Shown here: positions 29,860 to 39,204 of the stretch, one piece after another | Layout: each line of letters begins with the position of its first letter | Numbering within the stretch: position 1 is the stretch's first letter | Source of the DNA: Halostagnicola sp. A56 | GTDB taxonomy: Archaea; Halobacteriota; Halobacteria; Halobacteriales; Natrialbaceae | Length of the DNA: 64,000 nt | NCBI RefSeq assembly: GCF_000691505.1 | Contig: NZ_JMIP02000014.1 | Span: 485,943 to 549,942 of the forward strand | Direction: 5' to 3' | The notes under the pieces: model-generated | Database searches by the model: none | Told to the model about the DNA's origin: nothing | The model's input: the letters and a program-made list of their open reading frames with translations, nothing else | Position numbers and translations under genes: made by a program

Positions 29860-30324
29860 TCACTGTGAATCGTCCTCCGGCGGTAACCGGACCATCGAAA
29901 ACCAGAACTTCTCGAACGTTCGGACGGTCTCGATGAACGCGTCCGGATCGACTGGTTTCGTGAGGTAGGCGTTCGCACACAGATCGTACGACGTGATGAC
30001 GTCCTCTTCGGCCTGCGAACTCGTCAGGACGATCACCGGGATCCGCCGGAGCATTGGGTCGTCCTGCAGTTCCTCGAGAACCTCCTCGCCGTTCATCCGA
30101 GGCAGATTGAGGTCCAGCAAAACGAGGTCGGGCCGCGGCGCGTCCGCGTACTCACCTTCCTGGGAAAGGTACTCGAGCGCGTCGACGCCGTCGGAGACGA
30201 CGTCGAGTTCGATTTCGATTCGGCCGCGTTTGAACGCCTCTTTCGTCAGTCGAACGTCGCCGGGATTGTCTTCGACGAGCAGGATTCGAGCCGGTTCGGC
30301 GCTGGAAGTCGGTCGCTTTGTCAT
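29860..30324 (-). CDS. Single-domain response regulator (Rcp1-like)
   Basis: The 154-residue protein is a stand-alone receiver: [18 protein letters not shown] (acidic pair), [17 protein letters not shown] (acceptor Asp), [13 protein letters not shown] (Thr/Ser) and [14 protein letters not shown] (Lys). It ends with [16 protein letters not shown]. Such proteins relay phosphate between a kinase and other domains. Its start overlaps the kinase stop by four bases (ATGA), so translation is probably coupled. The fragment at 16555-16860 is a truncated paralogue. Confidence 0.92.
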
Positions 30325-33300
30325 TGCTGTAGCGGTGCTGGGAGTTGGACTGAGAACGTCGACCCGTCCGTACCGTTCGAATCGACCCAGATTCGACCGT
30401 CGTGTCGTTCGGCGATTCGCTGGCAGAGCGCGAGTCCGATTCCAGCCCCAGCGTACTCTTCGATGCTGTGAAGTCTGTTAAACACCTCGAAGATCCGGTC
30501 TGCGTCGGCCGGGTCGATTCCGATTCCCGAATCGCGCACCGAAATCGTCCACGATGACTGGGACTGCTCGGCGAAAACGGTCACGCGCGGCGACTCCCCG
30601 CCGGCGTAGGTGAGCGCGTTATCGAGGAGGTTCTGAAACAGCTGTCGCAGCTGTCCCGGGTCGCCGTAGACGGTCGGGAGCGATTCGATGGTAATCTCGG
30701 CGTCGGTCTCGTCTATCTTCATCTCGAGATCGGCTAACACGTCCTCGAGGAGCCGCTCGCAGTCGACCGGTTCGAACGGATTCCCGCCGGTATCGACCCG
30801 CGAGTACGCGAGCAGTCCGTCGATCATCTCCTGCATCCGGTCCGCGCCGTCGACGGCGAAGTCGATAAACTCCGTTCCCTCTTCGTCGAGTACGTCGCCG
30901 TACCGGCGCTCGACGAGCGTGAGATAGCTCGAGACCATCCTGAGTGGTTCCTGCAGGTCATGGGAGGCCGCGTACGCGAACTGCTCTAAGCGTTCGTTCG
31001 ACTCCTCGAGTTCGTCGACGAGCCCCTCGAGTTTTCGCTTGGAACGAACCCGCTCGGTGATGTCCTGTACCATCATCATGCCGGCGAACACCGTCCCGTC
31101 CTCGTCGCTGATCGGAAGCGTGTGTGCGTGCCAGTGCGAGTCGAGATACTCGAAGTCGAACGACCGTCGTTCCCCGTCCAGGGCGGCCCGAAAGTGCGGC
31201 TCGAGTGTCGTCGCGAGCGCCGCTGGGTACCGCTCCCAGAGCGTCGCGCCGACGATATCGTCGACGGTGGTGTCGACAGGGTGAACAGACTGTCCGCCGA
31301 CGAGCGTGTAGCGCAGTTCCTCGTCGAACAACGCGACCGCACCGTTCGGGAACTGCTCGACGAGGGTCCGGTATCGGCGCTCGCTCTCCTCGAGTGCGCG
31401 CTCGCGGGCTTTCCGCCGTGAGATGTCCCGCCCGATGCCGGCGAGCACCGTCTCCCCCTCGGGCGTCTCGAGGGCCGAGACGACGAACTCGTACTCGAGC
31501 GTCTCGCCGTCTCGCGTTCGAAGCGGCGTCTCGGTCCGGATCTGGCCCGCTTCGAATCCATGTTCGATCGCGCGTTCGACGGTGTCGTCCGCGAGCGCGA
31601 AGAACGTCGAGACGTGAACCGACTCGAGTTCGGCCGGCGAATATCCCGTTATTTCGGGGAGCGTCTCGTTCCAGCGTCGAAGCCGGCCGTCCTCGTCGAC
31701 GATACAGAACACGTCGTCGATCGTATCGAGTACGGCGTCGATGTACCGAACGTATCGCTGGAGGTGCTTTTCACGGCGCTGGCGGCCGAGTTCGTAGCTC
31801 ACCCACTGGGTGATGAGCTCGACGAACGTCTCTTCGGTCTGCGTAAACGGCGCGGACCGCGGCGACGTATCTTCGAAACAGAGCGTTCCGTATCGTTCGT
31901 CGTCGACGATCACTTCGCCGCCGAGATAGCAGTCTAACTCCCACCGATCGTAGACCTGATCGTCAATCGCGTCCGTCGCGTCGACCGTCGAAATGTCGGC
32001 AAATCCGAACAGGCCATCGGTCTCGAGCACCCGCTGACAGTACGTCTCCGACAGCGGCGCGACCGATCCCGGATAGATAGTCTTGCTCTCGCCGCTGGCG
32101 TGTGTCACCTCGAAGCGATCCGACTCCAGATCGGTCTTGGCAAGGTAACCGACCTCGAGGCCGAGCCGTTCGCGCCCGATCTCGAGCATCCGATCGACCT
32201 TCTCGTCGAACGACCGGCGTTGGTCCGACGCGATGGCGTACAGCCGATGCAGCGTTTCGGTGTTGTGCTCGCGTTCTCGTTCGATCGCCTTCTGCTCTGA
32301 GATATCCTGGAAGTAGACCGACAACCCCGTCTCGGAGGGGTGGGCGTTGATCTCGAACCAGCGCTCGAGGGGAGCCGGATAGTAGAATTCGAACGACGTC
32401 GGCTCCTGGGTCGCCATCGCCCGCTCGTACTCCGTGCGCAACGTCGAATCGGCCGTCCACTCGAAGGCTTCCCAGATCATCTCGCCGACCAGCCCTCGAT
32501 CGTGAAAGTCGATCAACTCCTCGGCGCGGTCGTTGAGGTACGTGAACCGCCAGTCGTCGTCGAGCGAGTAGAAGGCGTCGGTGACCCGGTCGAGGGTCGT
32601 CTCGAATTCGTCCTCGAGATGGGTTCGGTCGGTTACGTCTTCGAGCGAGTACACCGCACCGTCGAACTCGCCGTCCTCGTCGGTCAACGGCGCGCAGTGT
32701 GCCGATAGCCACACCCGCGTTCCGTCGGGGTGGTCGATCCCCAGCCGCTCGCCGTAGACCGCCTCACCCGTCTCTTCGACCTGGGAAAACGGCATCGCAT
32801 CGCCCGTTATCGGGTCGCCGCTGGCGTCGACGAGATTCCACCGGTCGTCGTCGTGATCGTAGGATCGGAGCGTCTCGAGGGGGCGACCGAGGAGTTCTTC
32901 CCCGCGGCTGTTCGCGAAGACGTTCCGGCCGTCGGCGTCGATGACGGTGATTCCGACCGGACTTGTCTCGACGATGCGGTCGGTGAGCGTCTCCGCGGCC
33001 CGCAGCGACCGTTTCGTTCGTCTGGTATCGATGGCCGACGCGAGGACGGTCCCGACGGATCGGAGGAACGCCTCTTCGTGGTCGTCGAACTCCCGTCGCT
33101 CTGTCGTGTACGCGCCCAGAACGCCCCACAGATCGTCCGCCGGGCCGATTCCAACGCAGAGCCCGCTCTCGAGTTCGTGGGCGTCGAACAGTTCCGGGCC
33201 GTCGAACCGAGGATCGGCCGCGAGCTCCGCGACGGCGACCGGCACCGCAGACAGCAGGTCGGGCGTCCCGTCGGACTCGTCGTTGGCCGGGATCGTTGCG

Positions 33301-33542
33301 GTCTCGACGGACCCCGACTCCCAGCCGTGGCCCGCCCGCAGGCACAACTCGTCGTCCCCGTCGATCGCCTCGAAAACCCCACAGCAGTCGGCCGGAAGCG
33401 TCTCTGCGACTACTTCGGCTCCCTCGTCCAACAGCTCGTCGACGTCGTCGGTCTCGAGGGCCCGCTGCCCGAGCGCAGCGACGGCCTCCTGCTGTCGAGT
33501 GCGAGATTGCAGAGCAGCTCGATGGTGGTCGGAGGTCGCCAT
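30321..33542 (-). CDS. Multi-PAS/GAF soluble sensor histidine kinase
   Basis: The product has 1073 residues with no transmembrane helix, so it is cytoplasmic. In order: GAF (about 25-180), PAS (about 185-315, with [15 protein letters not shown]), PAS (about 315-430), GAF (about 430-590), PAS (about 600-715, [15 protein letters not shown]), PAS (about 720-835), HisKA with [16 protein letters not shown] (phospho-His), and HATPase (about 950-1073; [33 protein letters not shown]). The N-terminal residues [18 protein letters not shown] lead straight into the first GAF. It is the first gene of an operon with a receiver protein and a receiver-HTH_10 protein. The signal, perhaps redox, light or a small ligand, is unknown. 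Confidence 0.9.
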
Positions 33543-33706: not shown

Positions 33707-36025
33707 TCATTCCGACGATGCGAACGTCGAGAGTCGAACCGTCTTCCCGTCCCGAAGGTGTTCGCGAATCCGGCGTCGATTCCACCCCAGCGCCGAGACG
33801 ATGCTCACACAGGCGCTGACGAGCAGGTTCGAGTAGTACTCGACGTCGACGGACGGACAGTCTTCGAACGCGAGCCGAACGCGCTCTATGCCGTCCGCGT
33901 CGTCGTCGGTCACCACGTATTCGACGGACTGACCGGGGTGGCGGTCGATCCCGTGGCGATCGTACCGCTCGAGGGCGGCGACCGTCCGCGTGCGCTGGCC
34001 GTACTCCTCGAGTCGACGCGAGACACGTTTCGTGTGGACGAGCCGGTCGGGGTCGACCGCGCCGCGTCGGAGTCGCCCGATTCGCGCCTCGAGCGCGTCG
34101 CAGACCGCCGCCGGGTCGCGCTCGCGGTCGAGGACCGCGACGAACTCGCGCTGGCTCTCGACGACGTACTCCGGCGTGCTCCGCTGGCGGGTCTCGATCC
34201 CGCGGAACTTGTAGCTCCCGTCCGTTCGCTTGCCGAAGTACTTGTTGAGCGCGCCCGGCCGCGTCGACCTCGACTGTGGGTGTGTGGGCGAACTCGAGCG
34301 AACAGGCGACGCCGAATCTCCCCCAACGGACGCCCCCTCGCTCGAGTCGCGCAACGGGACGAAACAGACCCACTCGTAGCGCCCGTCGTGCTCGAGATCG
34401 ATGCCGACCGAACTCGAGACGTCCTCGACGACCGCCTCGAGCGGTTCCGGGTCGTCCGCGCGGGCGGTCACCCAGAGGCTGTCGACGATGCCGTGGACAA
34501 CGTGCCAGCCGCCGTCCTCGAGTCGCGTTTTCGCCCGCAGGGCGATGTCTCGCGCGTAGGCGTTGATCGCCTCGTGGCACTCGATGCGACCGAACTTGGC
34601 GTTTCGATACCCCTGGTAGCCGAAACAGGACACCAGCACCCACTTGATCGCGCCCGACTCGGCCCGGAGCCGCCTCGCCGTCTCGTCCGCGAGCGAATCG
34701 GACTCGAGTCGCCGTTTGATCTCGGCGCGGTCGTCGAGCAACGTCGTGAGGACCTCCGGGAGGAAGCCGGGTTTCGAACACCGGTCGTACTCGAGGTCCG
34801 GAACGGTGGCCACGTCGGGCGGGGATTCGAACGTTGATCCGTCGCAATCATCGGATCCGTGTCCGCTCAGTCCATCGCCACCGGATCCGTGATCGCGGTC
34901 ACAGCCGATCGTCTCGGGGCTGACGTTTCGCCGGCAGATGATCCGCGGGTACAGCGACGCGAAGTCGATCTCGTGAACGTCCTCGTGAAAGCCGACCTCC
35001 GGCGAGAACGTGAACCCGCCGCGGTCGCCGGCGTGGAGCGTCGAGACGTCCTTGAACTCCTCGGGCTCCCACTTGTTCTGGGGCGCGAGCACGTCGTACT
35101 CGGTTCGCGCGAGCCGGATCTGTCTCGAGGTCAATAGCGTGCCGATGCTCCCGCGGGCGACCTCCTGTAGCGGTCTGCCGGTCTTTTCGACCATGTACAA
35201 CAGCCCCGGGAGCCCGGACTGGTGCCAGAGAAAGCTGTTGGATCTGTCGACGATCGCCCGTCCGGGAACGCGGTATCGGGCCGGCGAGTGACCGACCGCG
35301 CCGTAGCTCTCGTAGGTGTTCGCGCCCGCGATTCGACGCCAGCCGGGGAGCCGCCCCAGGTGAAACTCCTCGAGTCCCGCACGCGCGGCCGCCGACTCGA
35401 GGACGGGTACGAGTTCGCCGTGGCTCAGGACGAGCACGTCCGGATCGACCCGATCGAGGCGGCGGCCGATCGACCAGCAGACGTCCGCGGGGTCGCCGGT
35501 GACGCGCTCGCCGTCGAGTCGCAACTCGGAGACGTCCTCGTCGGCCAGCCCCGGGTCGTCGATCTCGATCTCGAGGGTTTGAAGCCCGCGCTCGGGGCCC
35601 CGGGTCGTCCGGGAGCCGCGCTCGGGCGTCGGGTCGATCCCGTTGTCGAGACAGTACCGAAAGCCCGGATCGAGGTCGACGTCGTACAGCCGAATCGTGC
35701 CGGGCGCGAGCGGTACGCGCCCGTCGCCTCCGCGAATCTCGCGAGCCAGCGTCCGAATTTCGTCGACGCGCTCGACGCTGACCCGCAGCAACTCCGTTCG
35801 GTCGTCGGCGTGACTCTCGTGGAGGTCTGCGGCCCACCGCTCGCGCGTCGTCCCCGACACCTTCGGATCCGACCGCAGGCGCGCCTCGAGCCCCGAGAGG
35901 TCGGGTGCCGAGACGAAAAGCGACGGGCGGTAGTGTTCGACCTCCCGAAACGTCGCCCCGTCCTCGGTGAGTCGCCACTCGCGGACGAGTCCGTCCTCGA
36001 ACTCGAATGTGTAAGGGGCGGTCAC
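33707..36025 (-). CDS. polB2: Divergent family B DNA polymerase, PolB2-like
   Basis: The product has 772 residues, initiated by GTG at 36025. Polymerase motif A is DFASLYPRI (Asp354). Motif B includes KWVLVSCFGYQGYRNAKFG (461-479). Motif C is HGIVDSLWV (Asp515), where replicative enzymes have YGDTDS, so the first aspartate is replaced by isoleucine. The exonuclease region (about 110-265) keeps only traces: LEIEIDD at the ExoI position, and no FD or YxxxD motifs. A low-complexity insert sits at about 376-405. It is shorter than replicative PolB. The start overlaps the stop of the small helical gene upstream by four bases, so it is the third gene of a coupled operon. A repair or translesion role is inferred, and catalysis itself needs testing. 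Confidence 0.85.
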   Translation of the reverse strand: MTAPYTFEFEDGLVREWRLTEDGATFREVEHYRPSLFVSAPDLSGLEARLRSDPKVSGTTRERWAADLHESHADDRTELLRVSVERVDEIRTLAREIRGGDGRVPLAPGTIRLYDVDLDPGFRYCLDNGIDPTPERGSRTTRGPERGLQTLEIEIDDPGLADEDVSELRLDGERVTGDPADVCWSIGRRLDRVDPDVLVLSHGELVPVLESAAARAGLEEFHLGRLPGWRRIAGANTYESYGAVGHSPARYRVPGRAIVDRSNSFLWHQSGLPGLLYMVEKTGRPLQEVARGSIGTLLTSRQIRLARTEYDVLAPQNKWEPEEFKDVSTLHAGDRGGFTFSPEVGFHEDVHEIDFASLYPRIICRRNVSPETIGCDRDHGSGGDGLSGHGSDDCDGSTFESPPDVATVPDLEYDRCSKPGFLPEVLTTLLDDRAEIKRRLESDSLADETARRLRAESGAIKWVLVSCFGYQGYRNAKFGRIECHEAINAYARDIALRAKTRLEDGGWHVVHGIVDSLWVTARADDPEPLEAVVEDVSSSVGIDLEHDGRYEWVCFVPLRDSSEGASVGGDSASPVRSSSPTHPQSRSTRPGALNKYFGKRTDGSYKFRGIETRQRSTPEYVVESQREFVAVLDRERDPAAVCDALEARIGRLRRGAVDPDRLVHTKRVSRRLEEYGQRTRTVAALERYDRHGIDRHPGQSVEYVVTDDDADGIERVRLAFEDCPSVDVEYYSNLLVSACVSIVSALGWNRRRIREHLRDGKTVRLSTFASSE

Positions 36026-36384
36026 GAGCGACCGTCCTCCGGACCGGTCGTCGCGGATTCCTCGAGTCTGGAATCGGTTTCCGCGAGTCTCGCCTCGATT
36101 TTCTCGAGCCGTCCCTCGGCGTCTTCGAGTTCCGTCTCCGCCTCCTCGAGCCGACCGCGGACCTGTCGGAGTTCAACCTCGTGGGCGAGCAACACCGAGA
36201 GTACGAGCGCGCGTTCGGGGTCCGTCGCGTTCGCGTGGCCCGCCGCGTCGGCGAACCCGCGGGCGCGCTCGAACAGGCGGTCGAAATCGGCCTGGTACTC
36301 CCGCCGGAGCGCACGGCGCATCGGTCCCCACTCGGACTCGAGGCTCGAGACCGCGTCGCGGTAGGTCGGGTTCGTCCGGCCCAT
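36022..36384 (-). CDS. Small helical/coiled-coil protein of the PolB2 operon
   Basis: From ATG 36384 the product has 120 residues. The N-terminal half is a mixed helical domain (MGRTNPTYRDAVSSLESEWG, RREYQADFDRLFERARGFADA, PERALVLSVLLAHEVELRQV). The C-terminal half is a regular coiled coil (GRLEEAETELEDAEGRLEKI). No catalytic motif or family is recognised. Its ATG overlaps the TGA of the RadA-like gene and its own TGA overlaps the polymerase GTG, so the three proteins are expected in coupled amounts. A bridging or clamp-adaptor role is possible; this is inference. Confidence 0.75.
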   Translation of the reverse strand: MGRTNPTYRDAVSSLESEWGPMRRALRREYQADFDRLFERARGFADAAGHANATDPERALVLSVLLAHEVELRQVRGRLEEAETELEDAEGRLEKIEARLAETDSRLEESATTGPEDGRS

Positions 36385-37091
36385 CAGCTCGACGCCTCCG
36401 TTTCGGGCGTCCGGAGTGATCCGCCGCTCGAGCCGCCGGGTTCCGGAGCCGCGTCGAACAATCCGCGATCGGCCGCCGCGACGACGGGATCGATCCGGTC
36501 GGCGACGCCGCAGCAGTCGACCCAGTAGGGGATCGTCGTCTGCCAGTAGGCTCCCTGCCAGTACCCCATCGTCTCCGCGCCGTCGCCCTCGAGGCGAACG
36601 CCCTCCCGCGTCCGGATGCACTCGACGCGGTGGTCTGCTCGCTCTGTGACCCGCTCTTCGGCCGCGTCGCTCGCCGCCGTGACCAGCACCGGAACCTCGA
36701 GCGCCCGTCCGAGTTCGGCCAGCGTCTCGAGGGTCGCCGCGAGCAGTTCCTCGCGTTCCCAGGCGGGGACGTCGTCGTCGCGATACCGGCCGACGACGTT
36801 CGGCGCGACGATAACCGACGTTCTCGGGGTCGCTTTCTCGACGACGCGGCGGACGATCGAGTGGTGCTGGTAGGCCGTAAACGACCGCGCGATACGAAGC
36901 GAGTCGAGGACGCGGGGACTCGAGGCACAGTCGTACAGCACCCGCGTCGAGGCGACGTTTCCCGCGTCGATCCAGTAGGCGGTGCCGGCGGTTTCCGCGA
37001 GCCGCGAACAGACCAGTTCGTGGAGGATCGGCGACCGCGCCGACGGCACTCGACAGCACGTCAGTCCGGGTTCGAACTCGAGTCGTGACAT
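36384..37091 (-). CDS. RadA/RecA-like protein with degenerate Walker motifs
   Basis: From ATG 37091 (another Met at 37118) the product has 235 residues. It aligns by eye with the RadA core: EPGLTCCRVPSARSPILHEL at the Walker A position, AYWIDAGN where RadA has YIDTEG, LDSLRIARSFTAYQHHSIV at the NIYVARAYNSDHQ position, TSVIVAPNVVGRYRD at Walker B and VPVLVTAAS where RadA has VLVTNQV. The G-x4-GK-T/S sequence and the Walker B aspartate are both lost, so ATP hydrolysis is unlikely. The N-terminal HhH domain of RadA is also absent. A TATA-like CTTATGG about 27 nt upstream supports leaderless initiation. It is the first gene of the polymerase operon. Confidence 0.75.
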   Translation of the reverse strand: MSRLEFEPGLTCCRVPSARSPILHELVCSRLAETAGTAYWIDAGNVASTRVLYDCASSPRVLDSLRIARSFTAYQHHSIVRRVVEKATPRTSVIVAPNVVGRYRDDDVPAWEREELLAATLETLAELGRALEVPVLVTAASDAAEERVTERADHRVECIRTREGVRLEGDGAETMGYWQGAYWQTTIPYWVDCCGVADRIDPVVAAADRGLFDAAPEPGGSSGGSLRTPETEASS

Positions 37092-37269
37092 ACCCGAACG
37101 GTCGGCCGGCCGATCCATAAGCGGCGGAACGCGGGTTCCGTAATTCCGATAGGGACGGGTTCGGGCGCGTTCGGGAGGAACGACGGGGGAGCGCTCGAGT
37201 GTTCGCGGCGACCACTCGAGTTCCGAAACGAGGGAGGCGGCGTCCAGACGAGAAAGAGGACCGCGGCGT

Positions 37270-38018
37270 TCACGCGAACAGCAAGACCGCGGCGTACCCC
37301 GCCGCGCCGAGCGCGAACGCCCAGAACCGGCTCTCGCGTTCGGCTGGCAGCTCCTCCTTGATGACGTTGAGGATGATCCCGCCAGCGAGGAAGGCAAAGA
37401 GCACCGAGACGAGCGGTTCGATGATCTTCACGGCGAATCCCACGGCGCGCCGACGAGCACCGCCGCCGCCAGCATCCAGCGCCCGTAATCGTGGTAAAGC
37501 CGGCCGTGATGGGATCGGAGCCCGGAGTCGTTCACGGCGAAGTGCAGCGCCATCGCGACGGCGAACGTCGCCAAGCCCGCGACGCCGGGACTCTCGCGGT
37601 GGACCAGCAGGTACCCGATGAGGGCGTTGTACGCAGCGAACGACCCGACGTGGATCCAAAAGACGCCCGTGCTCGGCTCGAGGCCGTACCGAAGAGCGGC
37701 GACGTTCGACTGGCGGACGTACTGCTCGAGGCCGTAGAAGGCGACGAATCCGACGAGCACGATCAGGTAGACGTGGGCCTCGGCGAACGAGACGACGGGA
37801 TCCCAGCCCGCGACCGTCAGCACCGCCTCGTGGATCTCCGGGATGATGTGGACGAAGACGTACGCGATGGAGACCCCGCCCGCGAACGAGAGCCACCGAC
37901 TGCGAGGAACGCGGTCCGCGAGCGCGAGTCGACCCACGAAGAGGTGGACGAGCGCGAGCGCGACGGCAGATACTGCGACGAGAAACGCGATGGGCGTCGA
38001 GAGGCCGCTTGCGGACAT
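37270..38018 (-). pseudogene. Polytopic membrane protein, perhaps ZIP-like, frameshifted near 37445
   Basis: The frame from MSASGLSTPIAFLVAVSAVA shows about six helices, including VSIAYVFVHIIPEIHEAV and MALHFAVNDSGLRSHHG, whose helix-embedded His, Glu and Asp recall ZIP metal transporters. It breaks after AAAVLVG as APWDSP-stop. The next frame continues AVGFAVKIIEPLVSVLFAF and GFIILNV-type sequence to the end (WAFALGAAGYAAVLLFA). Adding one base near 37441-37452 gives 249 residues with eight helices. The family is uncertain because the canonical HNxxEG motif is not seen. The gene lies between the Orc1/Cdc6 and polymerase operons, in the same direction. Confidence 0.7.
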
Positions 38019-38128: not shown

Positions 38129-39157
38129 TTATTCGTCGTCGACCAGGCGGTAGGTCCGGCCCCGACGCTCGCCGACGGCCTCGATCAGGTCGTAGTGGAC
38201 CATCTTCGTCAGGTAGTTTCGCAGGGTTCGGTTGGTCTTCGGGTCCTCGACCGCCTCCTCGTAGGCCGCGTAGAGTTCGCCGGGTTCGATCTCGCCCGCC
38301 TCCGCGATGCGGTCGTAGAGCACCCGCTGGTGTTCGATCAACTGCTCGACGGTCTTTCGACGGATCGCCGTCCGCGCGTCGGGAATCGACGCCTCGAGCA
38401 CGTCGTCTGTGACCGACTCGAGGCCGCGGCGCTCCGCGCGACGAACCGCCGAGCGGAGAATGCCGATCCCGACGCGGGCGTCCCCCGCCGCGGCGTCGGC
38501 GATGGTCCGGAGGTGGCGCTCGCCGACTGCGCCCGGTTCGAGCCCCTGTACGGCGCGTTCCTCGAGAATCGCGACGAGTTCGTCCGTCCCGTAGCGGTCG
38601 AACTGAACGCGGGTGCCAGCCCGCAGTCGGGAGCGAACCCGGTCGTCGAAGCTCGCGAATAGCTCCTCCTCGCGGTTGGCGATCAACACGAGCGAGACGT
38701 GGGGGAGCCGATGGAGGTCGTAGAGCACCTCGGTCTCCTCGAGCTGGTCCACCTCGTCCAAAATCGCGACGATGGGTTGGTCGTCCGCGTCCGAAAGCCG
38801 CCGGAAGAGTTCGTCTTTCGGCGTCGAGCGATGGACATCGAACGCCCGGTCGACGGCCTCGAGAACGCTGTAGAGCACCCGAAACCGGGTGTACTCCTGC
38901 CAGCAGTTGACGTAGGCGGTCCGAACGCTCGGGAGCTGGTCGCGAAGCTGGTCGACGGTGTAGCGGGCGATACAGGTCTTGCCGACGCCGGTCGGGCCGA
39001 AGAGGAAGGCGGTCTCGGGCCGAGCGTCGGAGAGCAGCGGCTCGAGGGTCTCAGAGAGGTGGTTGACCGCCTCGTGGCGGTGGACCACCTCGCTCGGGAC
39101 GAAATCCTCGTGGAGGACGCGGTCGTCGACGATCACGGCTCGTGATTTGGGTGCCAC
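38129..39157 (-). CDS. orc: Orc1/Cdc6-family replication initiator
   Basis: From a GTG at 39157 the product has 342 residues. The AAA+ core has Walker A FGPTGVGKT at about 53-61, Walker B VAILDEVDQLEE and sensor LVLIANREEELF. A lid with IADAAAGDARVGIGILRSA follows, and a C-terminal winged helix (about 265-342, VEQLIEHQRVLYDRI, TNRTLRNYLTKMV, GERRGRTYRLVDD). Haloarchaea carry many Orc paralogues, some bound to origins and others not. No clear G-rich origin recognition box was seen in the flanking DNA, so an origin here is not claimed. The upstream palindrome at 39179-39204 may control it. Confidence 0.9.
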   Translation of the reverse strand: MAPKSRAVIVDDRVLHEDFVPSEVVHRHEAVNHLSETLEPLLSDARPETAFLFGPTGVGKTCIARYTVDQLRDQLPSVRTAYVNCWQEYTRFRVLYSVLEAVDRAFDVHRSTPKDELFRRLSDADDQPIVAILDEVDQLEETEVLYDLHRLPHVSLVLIANREEELFASFDDRVRSRLRAGTRVQFDRYGTDELVAILEERAVQGLEPGAVGERHLRTIADAAAGDARVGIGILRSAVRRAERRGLESVTDDVLEASIPDARTAIRRKTVEQLIEHQRVLYDRIAEAGEIEPGELYAAYEEAVEDPKTNRTLRNYLTKMVHYDLIEAVGERRGRTYRLVDDE

Positions 39158-39178
39158 TCCCTTAAGCGACGGTGCGGC

Positions 39179-39204
39179 GGTTCCGATAGTTCCGAAATCG
39201 GACC
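39179..39204. promoter_or_regulatory. Imperfect palindrome upstream of the Orc1/Cdc6 gene
   Basis: GGTTCCGAT and ATCGGACC form near-perfect arms (one bulged base) around AGTTCCGAA, 22-47 nt before the GTG start at 39157. Two TGATTCGGCG direct repeats follow at about 39220-39250. These could be initiator or repressor sites; only the symmetry is seen. Confidence 0.35.

Follow-up and report, generated by a model that had tools for sequence, protein, structure and literature searches.

Three overlapping genes on the minus strand of a 64,000-nucleotide stretch of Halostagnicola sp. A56 DNA (contig NZ_JMIP02000014.1; the whole stretch is called the window below) encode a RadA-like protein, iRadA, a small helical protein, PPB2, and a family B DNA polymerase, PolB2. 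The iRadA stop codon and the PPB2 ATG have one base in common (TGATG), and the PPB2 and PolB2 genes overlap by four bases (GTGA), within the 1–4 bases described in the first-pass annotation, a model's reading of the letters alone. These genes are the haloarchaeal PolB2 mutasome locus, iRadA-PPB2-PolB2, a known system. Upstream, and read in the same direction, lies a gene for an Orc/Cdc6 paralogue, and a promoter box made of a direct repeat precedes both this gene and the operon. The reading favoured here, with a probability of about 0.7, is that of a PolB2 mutasome operon, coding for a three-protein translesion polymerase, next to an Orc/Cdc6 paralogue that is proposed as its regulator.

A 2014 paper (PMC4104785) described the operon with its Orc neighbour and its distribution among archaea, haloarchaea included, and held a role in the damage response to be likely; in 2025 the operon was named the PolB2 mutasome and likened to Pol V, with citation of induction and mutagenesis data from Sulfolobus (PMC11791011). 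The archaeal damage-tolerance module first proposed for the window holds as a supported reading but not as a new system. The three genes and their Orc neighbour being known, no description of a box shared by the PolB2 operon and Orc was found in the open-access literature, most subscription papers lying outside the search; the accessible part of PMC11791011 never uses the word ‘promoter’, and that of PMC4104785 uses it once, for polB3 and dnaG.

Protein features were compared in a wider set of 80 named loci from a single genome scan (81 sequences with the window), in which the open reading frames (ORFs) of iRadA and PPB2 were identified from their position and start motif, without a homology criterion. 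iRadA, whose label arCOG07763-like is taken over from PMC4104785, is without the N-terminal helical domain and shorter than the 337-residue RadA of the same genome. In the window its matches to TIGR02237 (RadB, 6e-5) and Pfam Rad51 (0.053) are both below cut-off, and a profile of the iRadA family finds the Rad51 core at 1.9e-8. Pfam Rad51 is matched at E 0.1 by 22 of 37 family members and RNase_H_2 by one, and an F.A.Q motif is missing from 10 of the 37 sequences in the iRadA alignment. The 69 ORFs assigned to iRadA by position, 66 of which have at least 200 residues, contain no P-loop of the form GxxxxGK[ST], in agreement with the lack of Walker motifs noticed at first. The uncharacterised helical protein of the first pass is PPB2: its MGRT start fits the arm that PMC11791011 describes together with a conserved Arg3 and Arg9. 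Both arginines are invariant in 36 of 36 aligned PPB2s; as these were picked by an MG[RK][TS] start, Arg9 is the independent residue. PADLOC gave no match for iRadA or PPB2.

The polymerase had rightly been called a divergent member of family B. Motif A keeps its Asp (Asp354 in the window) in 81/81 sequences, and motif C, HGIVDS in the window, reads [IV]VD in all 81, the first Asp of the DxD being lost and the second, Asp515, kept. A stretch taken by eye, with a tentative assignment of columns, as Exo I of the proofreading exonuclease site is not conserved in the 81 sequences; IMS_C was matched by the window polymerase at E 0.1 only, and PADLOC matched PolB2 to a homing-endonuclease model (8e-12) and gave Orc two weak matches. 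That the polymerase might be the replicative one had been allowed for in the first-pass annotation. Because a separate, stronger family B match lies on contig C5 of the same genome, and because motif C has lost its first Asp throughout, this is not so. An L..[FY] end, present in 73/81 sequences against 4% of random windows, may form a weak clamp-binding tail (window 33707-33772), and a strict PCNA motif was found at the C-terminus in 1/81. Elsewhere in the genome there is a remnant of a family B polymerase, short and carrying two stops (L003, G000 C19:48864-48986).

The DxD, broken in every sequence, could also mean that the operon is an inactive relic, or that it acts in replication control rather than lesion bypass; replication regulation or origin recognition are options raised in PMC4104785, and an unpublished remark has it that polB2 can be deleted in Haloferax volcanii (PMC7776575). 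A dead enzyme, however, would have no need of the motif A Asp and the second motif C Asp, both invariant, and Sulfolobus PolB2 with the same loss is reported in PMC11791011 as active and required for targeted mutagenesis. Such a relic or replication role is regarded as improbable. With the PolB2 mutasome or Dpo2 operon of Sulfolobus, the window shares the protein families, the order iRadA-PPB2-PolB2, the strand and the orc1/cdc6 neighbour, as well as the lost first DxD Asp, the MGRT arm and an iRadA without P-loop; as far as sequences allow a judgement, no protein feature tested speaks against membership in this system.

Conservation was followed in 125 Natrialbaceae genomes, the own genome included, searched with each of the three proteins. 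The places found were joined by position, polymerase places being the listed ones (down to about 1e-39). Polymerase matches found in pieces were joined manually; for the partners, only the first piece of a split iRadA match and PPB2 matches of 3.8e-9 or better were counted. Both partners are present on the same strand and in the order iRadA-PPB2-PolB2 at 80 of the 87 listed PolB2 places, one or both being missing at the other 7, and a complete triad occurs in at least 68/125 genomes. The three genes, far from being rarely adjacent, thus form the conserved triad expected at first, and their random association was rejected on this constancy of order. PPB2 with an MGR[TS]-type start lies directly upstream of the polymerase at 69 of the 80 named loci. 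Of 15 plasmid stretches examined for annotated genes, 13 carry at least two small hypothetical genes immediately upstream of the polymerase gene; the exceptions are Haloarcula marina (L239), with no such gene, and Halomarina (L237), with no annotation.

An Orc gene lies near the triad in 18 of the 20 relatives (close set) whose triad neighbourhood was read in detail. At the named loci, an Orc match falls in the fetched stretch in 49/80 cases, 42 of them on the same strand, with at least 34% identity and with an iRadA ORF found. The Orc of the window, correctly noted at the outset as close by and in the same direction though a ZIP-like gene intervenes (shared by 3/20 relatives only), has a Walker A motif, GPTGVGKT, recognised by eye, and matches to the Cdc6 lid and TIGR02928. 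Its ORF opens at GTG 39157; GTG 39136 is the likelier start, preferred because the box then lies about as far from the start as it does at iRadA.

The box was first seen by reading relatives' promoters, where TTTCGGAA or TATCGGAA recurs as a unit upstream of iRadA. In the window it takes the form of a direct repeat, TTTCGGAA-nn-TCGGAA, about 45–60 bp upstream of the start and above a TATA-like CTTA, at both iRadA and Orc/Cdc6 (Table 1). The CTTA is about 29 bp from the start codon, and the same arrangement is found upstream of Orc; a distal copy lies between -180 and -70 in 17/21 iRadA promoters (window and 20 relatives). The Orc box is the sole exact double TCGGAA repeat in the window, and 7 of 100 shuffles yield one. 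Since the exact pattern TCGGAAN{1,3}TCGGAA also matches coding sequence, a sequence-only model of 46 positions was used, made from 30 aligned elements of 17 genomes; 40 promoters had been examined, of which 33 fitted a pattern that overlooked some boxes recognisable by eye. With this model the own genome yields three matches below E 0.01: Orc (7e-10), iRadA (1.5e-7) and a second Orc paralogue (0.0036), which contributed no row to the model.

Table 1. Genes, promoter elements and box-associated loci (positions in the window, or locus handles for other genomes)
Feature	Position	Strand	Basis or remark
iRadA, RadA/Rad51 core-like without P-loop, 235 aa	36384..37091 (ATG 37091, stop 36384)	-	ORF and translation
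PPB2 (arCOG07300-like), small helical, 120 aa, start MGRTNPTYR	36022..36384	-	translation; PHROG phrog_30126, 2e-24
PolB2 DNA polymerase, 772 aa	33707..36025 (GTG start 36025)	-	NCBIfam NF004418, 1.5e-234
Orc/Cdc6 paralogue, proposed autoregulated regulator	38129..39136	-	TIGR02928
ZIP-like gene, between Orc/Cdc6 gene and iRadA	37428-38018		Pfam Zip 3.6e-5, below cut-off
iRadA-PPB2-PolB2 promoter box	37115..37154	-	model match, 32.5 bits
Units in iRadA box	TATCGGAA 37151-37144; CGGAA 37140-37136; TATA-like CTTAT 37121-37117	-	
Distal copy TTTCGGAA upstream of same operon	37221..37228	-	
Orc/Cdc6 promoter box	39160..39202	-	model match, 39.8 bits
Units in Orc box	TTTCGGAA 39197-39190; TATCGGAA 39188-39181; TATA-like CTTAA 39166-39162	-	
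Box-then-gene family	L197, L200, L201, L205, L208, L210, L217-L224		one member tested is an integrase
51–57 aa proteins	L192, L196, L204, L212, L216		

Orc genes often adjoin replication origins with repeats, and this repeat is said to share GGAAAC with haloarchaeal ORB elements; the box could thus be an origin recognition repeat and the locus an origin, at which Orc would bind for initiation and not for transcription. Two observations argue against it: the repeat, with a TATA-like CTTA below it, keeps a similar spacing to the start at the unlinked iRadA, second Orc and lone PPB2 genes, and the own genome holds only three matches below E 0.01. This origin explanation is therefore considered quite unlikely.

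Across the 125 genomes, a match at E 0.01 or better, the threshold used, occurs in 76. Among the 150 matches listed, 55 are at Orc, 46 at iRadA, 4 at lone PPB2 and 45 elsewhere, one of the last being the G062 Orc promoter split by a contig end. Promoters that gave no row to the model have the box in 18/23 cases at iRadA and 37/53 at Orc. The box tracks the close Orc (an orthologue of at least 72% identity): a match was obtained in 63/67 genomes with it against 13/58 without it. Thirty genomes have a close Orc and no host-type triad, this term covering the 40 best iRadA places (at least 47% identity); 27 of them have a match somewhere, and 21 directly at Orc among the matches listed. In the genus itself, genome G020 has no triad, no close Orc and no box match below 0.04.

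The repeat unit also changes between clades. Outside Natrialbaceae it becomes, for instance, CCCGGAA (Halosegnis, Halorarius) and TTCTGGAA or TTCCGGAA (Halorientalis, Halorussus); such changes tend to be alike in the iRadA and Orc promoters. At 41 named loci with both promoters, start codons being set by rule, a GGAA direct repeat is found in 25 iRadA and 29 Orc promoters, and in both at 23; shuffled sequences give means of 0.4 (iRadA) and 0.3 (Orc), with maxima of 2 and 3 in 300 shuffles. Where both promoters have the repeat (23 loci), the bases that precede GGAA resemble each other within a locus to a degree that none of 20000 permutations reached; kinship was ignored in these permutations, and locus L301 was left out. 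The outcome is the same for the 15 loci with an Orc below 70% identity. For eight annotated plasmid promoter pairs, 4 of 20000 permutations, again regardless of kinship, reach or exceed the observed sum; the own partner ranks first in five of the eight, second in Halorussus, fourth in Halalkalicoccus and last in Haloprofundus.

Co-variation of this kind is consistent with binding by Orc. Alternatively, the box is real and is bound by another transcription factor, the Orc gene being merely one target. In favour of this are the many targets that are genes of probable mobile elements, the Halorhabdus triad with a box-like repeat and no Cdc6 annotated in the fetched stretch, the Halobaculum stretch with an orc1/cdc6 initiator-type gene only, and the 13 genomes that have a match and no close Orc. 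Against it stand the 63/67 genomes that combine close Orc and match, and the retention of the box at Orc genes where no PolB2 is listed; a different binder is held to be a rather doubtful explanation.

The proposal of Orc as regulator starts from three observations: the order of the genes, the loss of catalytic and ATPase motifs, and a conserved, co-varying box common to the operon and Orc. The Orc paralogue would bind the box and regulate both its own gene and the operon; DNA damage would raise expression of orc and of the operon, and PolB2 would then extend ends that are mismatched or blocked by a lesion, PPB2 and iRadA serving as accessory subunits. The closest precedent is Sulfolobus Orc1-2: PMC9738581 describes its binding to an element present both in the promoter of its own gene and in that of a damage-response gene. 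The regulon of Orc1-2 shares with the present case an Orc/Cdc6 paralogue and an element both in the paralogue's own promoter and in those of damage-response genes, here the mutasome. The gene set is narrow compared with that regulon, consisting of the orc genes, the mutasome and probable mobile genes.

Several points weigh against regulation of the mutasome by Orc. The Sulfolobus element, DDRE, is ANTTTC, whereas the haloarchaeal one is a clade-dependent direct repeat of TTTCGGAA-type units; ANTTTC was not found as a conserved element of this Orc's own promoter, and the claim is only that the element works alike. The haloarchaeal Orc is likened to Orc1-2 by its proposed role, not as an orthologue. 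No E 0.01 match is present at 16/66 close Orc promoters and 5/40 host-type iRadA promoters, and the GGAA repeat is in neither promoter at 10 of the 41 named loci and in one only at 8. The permutation and Fisher figures ignore relatedness among loci. The own-genome radA promoter has no GGAA in the 230 bases read and no box match, and in a Halobacterium ultraviolet (UV) study (PMC1224876) radA1 is the most UV-induced gene, with no mention of polB2 or orc in the accessible text. As radA is without box and the UV study names neither gene, there is no support for a global damage regulon. The same study slightly lowered confidence in the proposal, as did the finding that, of the 21 genomes with a match directly at Orc and no host-type triad, only 14 are without a listed PolB2 place, the rest having a more distant PolB2.

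PPB2, iRadA and the box also occur away from PolB2, as lone PPB2 genes (L081-L089; 9 of 13 places fetched) and as iRadA-PPB2 pairs (L072-L080; 9 of 10 fetched); additional two-gene copies are mentioned in PMC4104785. Pairs without PolB2 are found in G055, G070, G073 and others, G055 having five, on the chromosome and on smaller contigs, and G070 two near-identical copies (L077, L078). The box is directly upstream in 6/9 fetched lone PPB2 loci (five by model, L085 by pattern) and in 6/9 fetched pair loci. PPB2 has Lys3 in 16/17 lone or pair loci (L077 and L078 being near-identical) and, beside PolB2, Arg3 in 69/69, found with a pattern allowing Arg or Lys. Four lone loci (L081, L082, L083 and L085) have a common neighbour gene homologous to a pleolipovirus regulator, with 24% identity to ORF9 of Halorubrum pleomorphic virus 3. 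The PHROG family of PPB2 is annotated as of unknown function, and no lone PPB2 was found in the phage collection and viral contigs searched.

Forty of the 45 box sites elsewhere were fetched. At 14 of these the box lies about 170–230 bp before one gene family, with a conserved stretch between (Table 1); five precede proteins with cysteine pairs, the box being 181–186 bp upstream, and Pfam gave no match for the one such protein tested. Two precede a third Orc family, five (L191, L194, L195, L198, L207) resemble, by eye, remnants of lost Orc or triad loci, and the remaining ones are unexplained or due to chance. Proteins of about 110 residues and unknown function lie behind box-like sites at L084, L143, L149, L150 and L226, L149 being near a second Orc paralogue.

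Many of the box-bearing lone PPB2, pair and integrase loci are probably mobile. Such elements would keep PPB2, iRadA and integrase genes of their own downstream of the box and so follow the damage signal of the host. In a wider and more tentative formulation, which may well be wrong, haloarchaea possess an SOS-like regulon based on an Orc/Cdc6 paralogue that binds a TTTCGGAA-type direct repeat in its own promoter and in the mutasome promoter, box and regulator having changed together across families; proviruses and integrative elements would have adopted the box for integrases, small proteins and a Lys3 PPB2, by which excision and a re-tuned mutasome may be coupled to DNA damage in the host.

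The box bears on how archaea other than Sulfolobus detect damage and turn on mutagenic synthesis: a defined element common to a candidate regulator and the mutasome makes an SOS-like switch testable in tractable haloarchaea. If mobile elements use it, they would parallel, in archaea, the LexA-controlled prophages and the Pol V carried by plasmids, and the viral family phrog_30126, that is, PPB2, would gain a role. E. coli Pol V (UmuD'2C-RecA), under LexA control, likewise is a multi-subunit mutagenic polymerase with a RecA-like partner, is linked to its regulator by a promoter box and has subunits carried by mobile elements. However, its polymerase is of family Y and its regulator LexA, whereas here a family B polymerase, a RadA-like protein without P-loop and a proposed AAA+ Orc-type regulator are involved. 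The bacterial ImuA-ImuB-DnaE2 cassette, with which the locus was first compared, is a functional analogy: one operon combines a RecA-like protein without normal function, an adaptor and an error-prone polymerase. The parallel goes no further, as the polymerase family differs, the Y-family-like ImuB and C-family DnaE2 have no equivalents here and none of the three triad proteins is ImuB-like; the parallel drawn in PMC11791011 is Pol V.

In the neighbourhood of the triad, the operon is followed in the window by a response regulator and a large sensor kinase on the minus strand (29860-33542); tblastn found the regulator in 14/20 and the kinase in 12/20 of the relatives' stretches, some of which end nearby. 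Halobacterium salinarum plasmid PHS1 (L233) carries an SRAP (SOS response-associated peptidase) gene some 3 kb upstream of its triad, and an enriched association of SRAP with the PolB2 mutasome is reported in PMC11791011.

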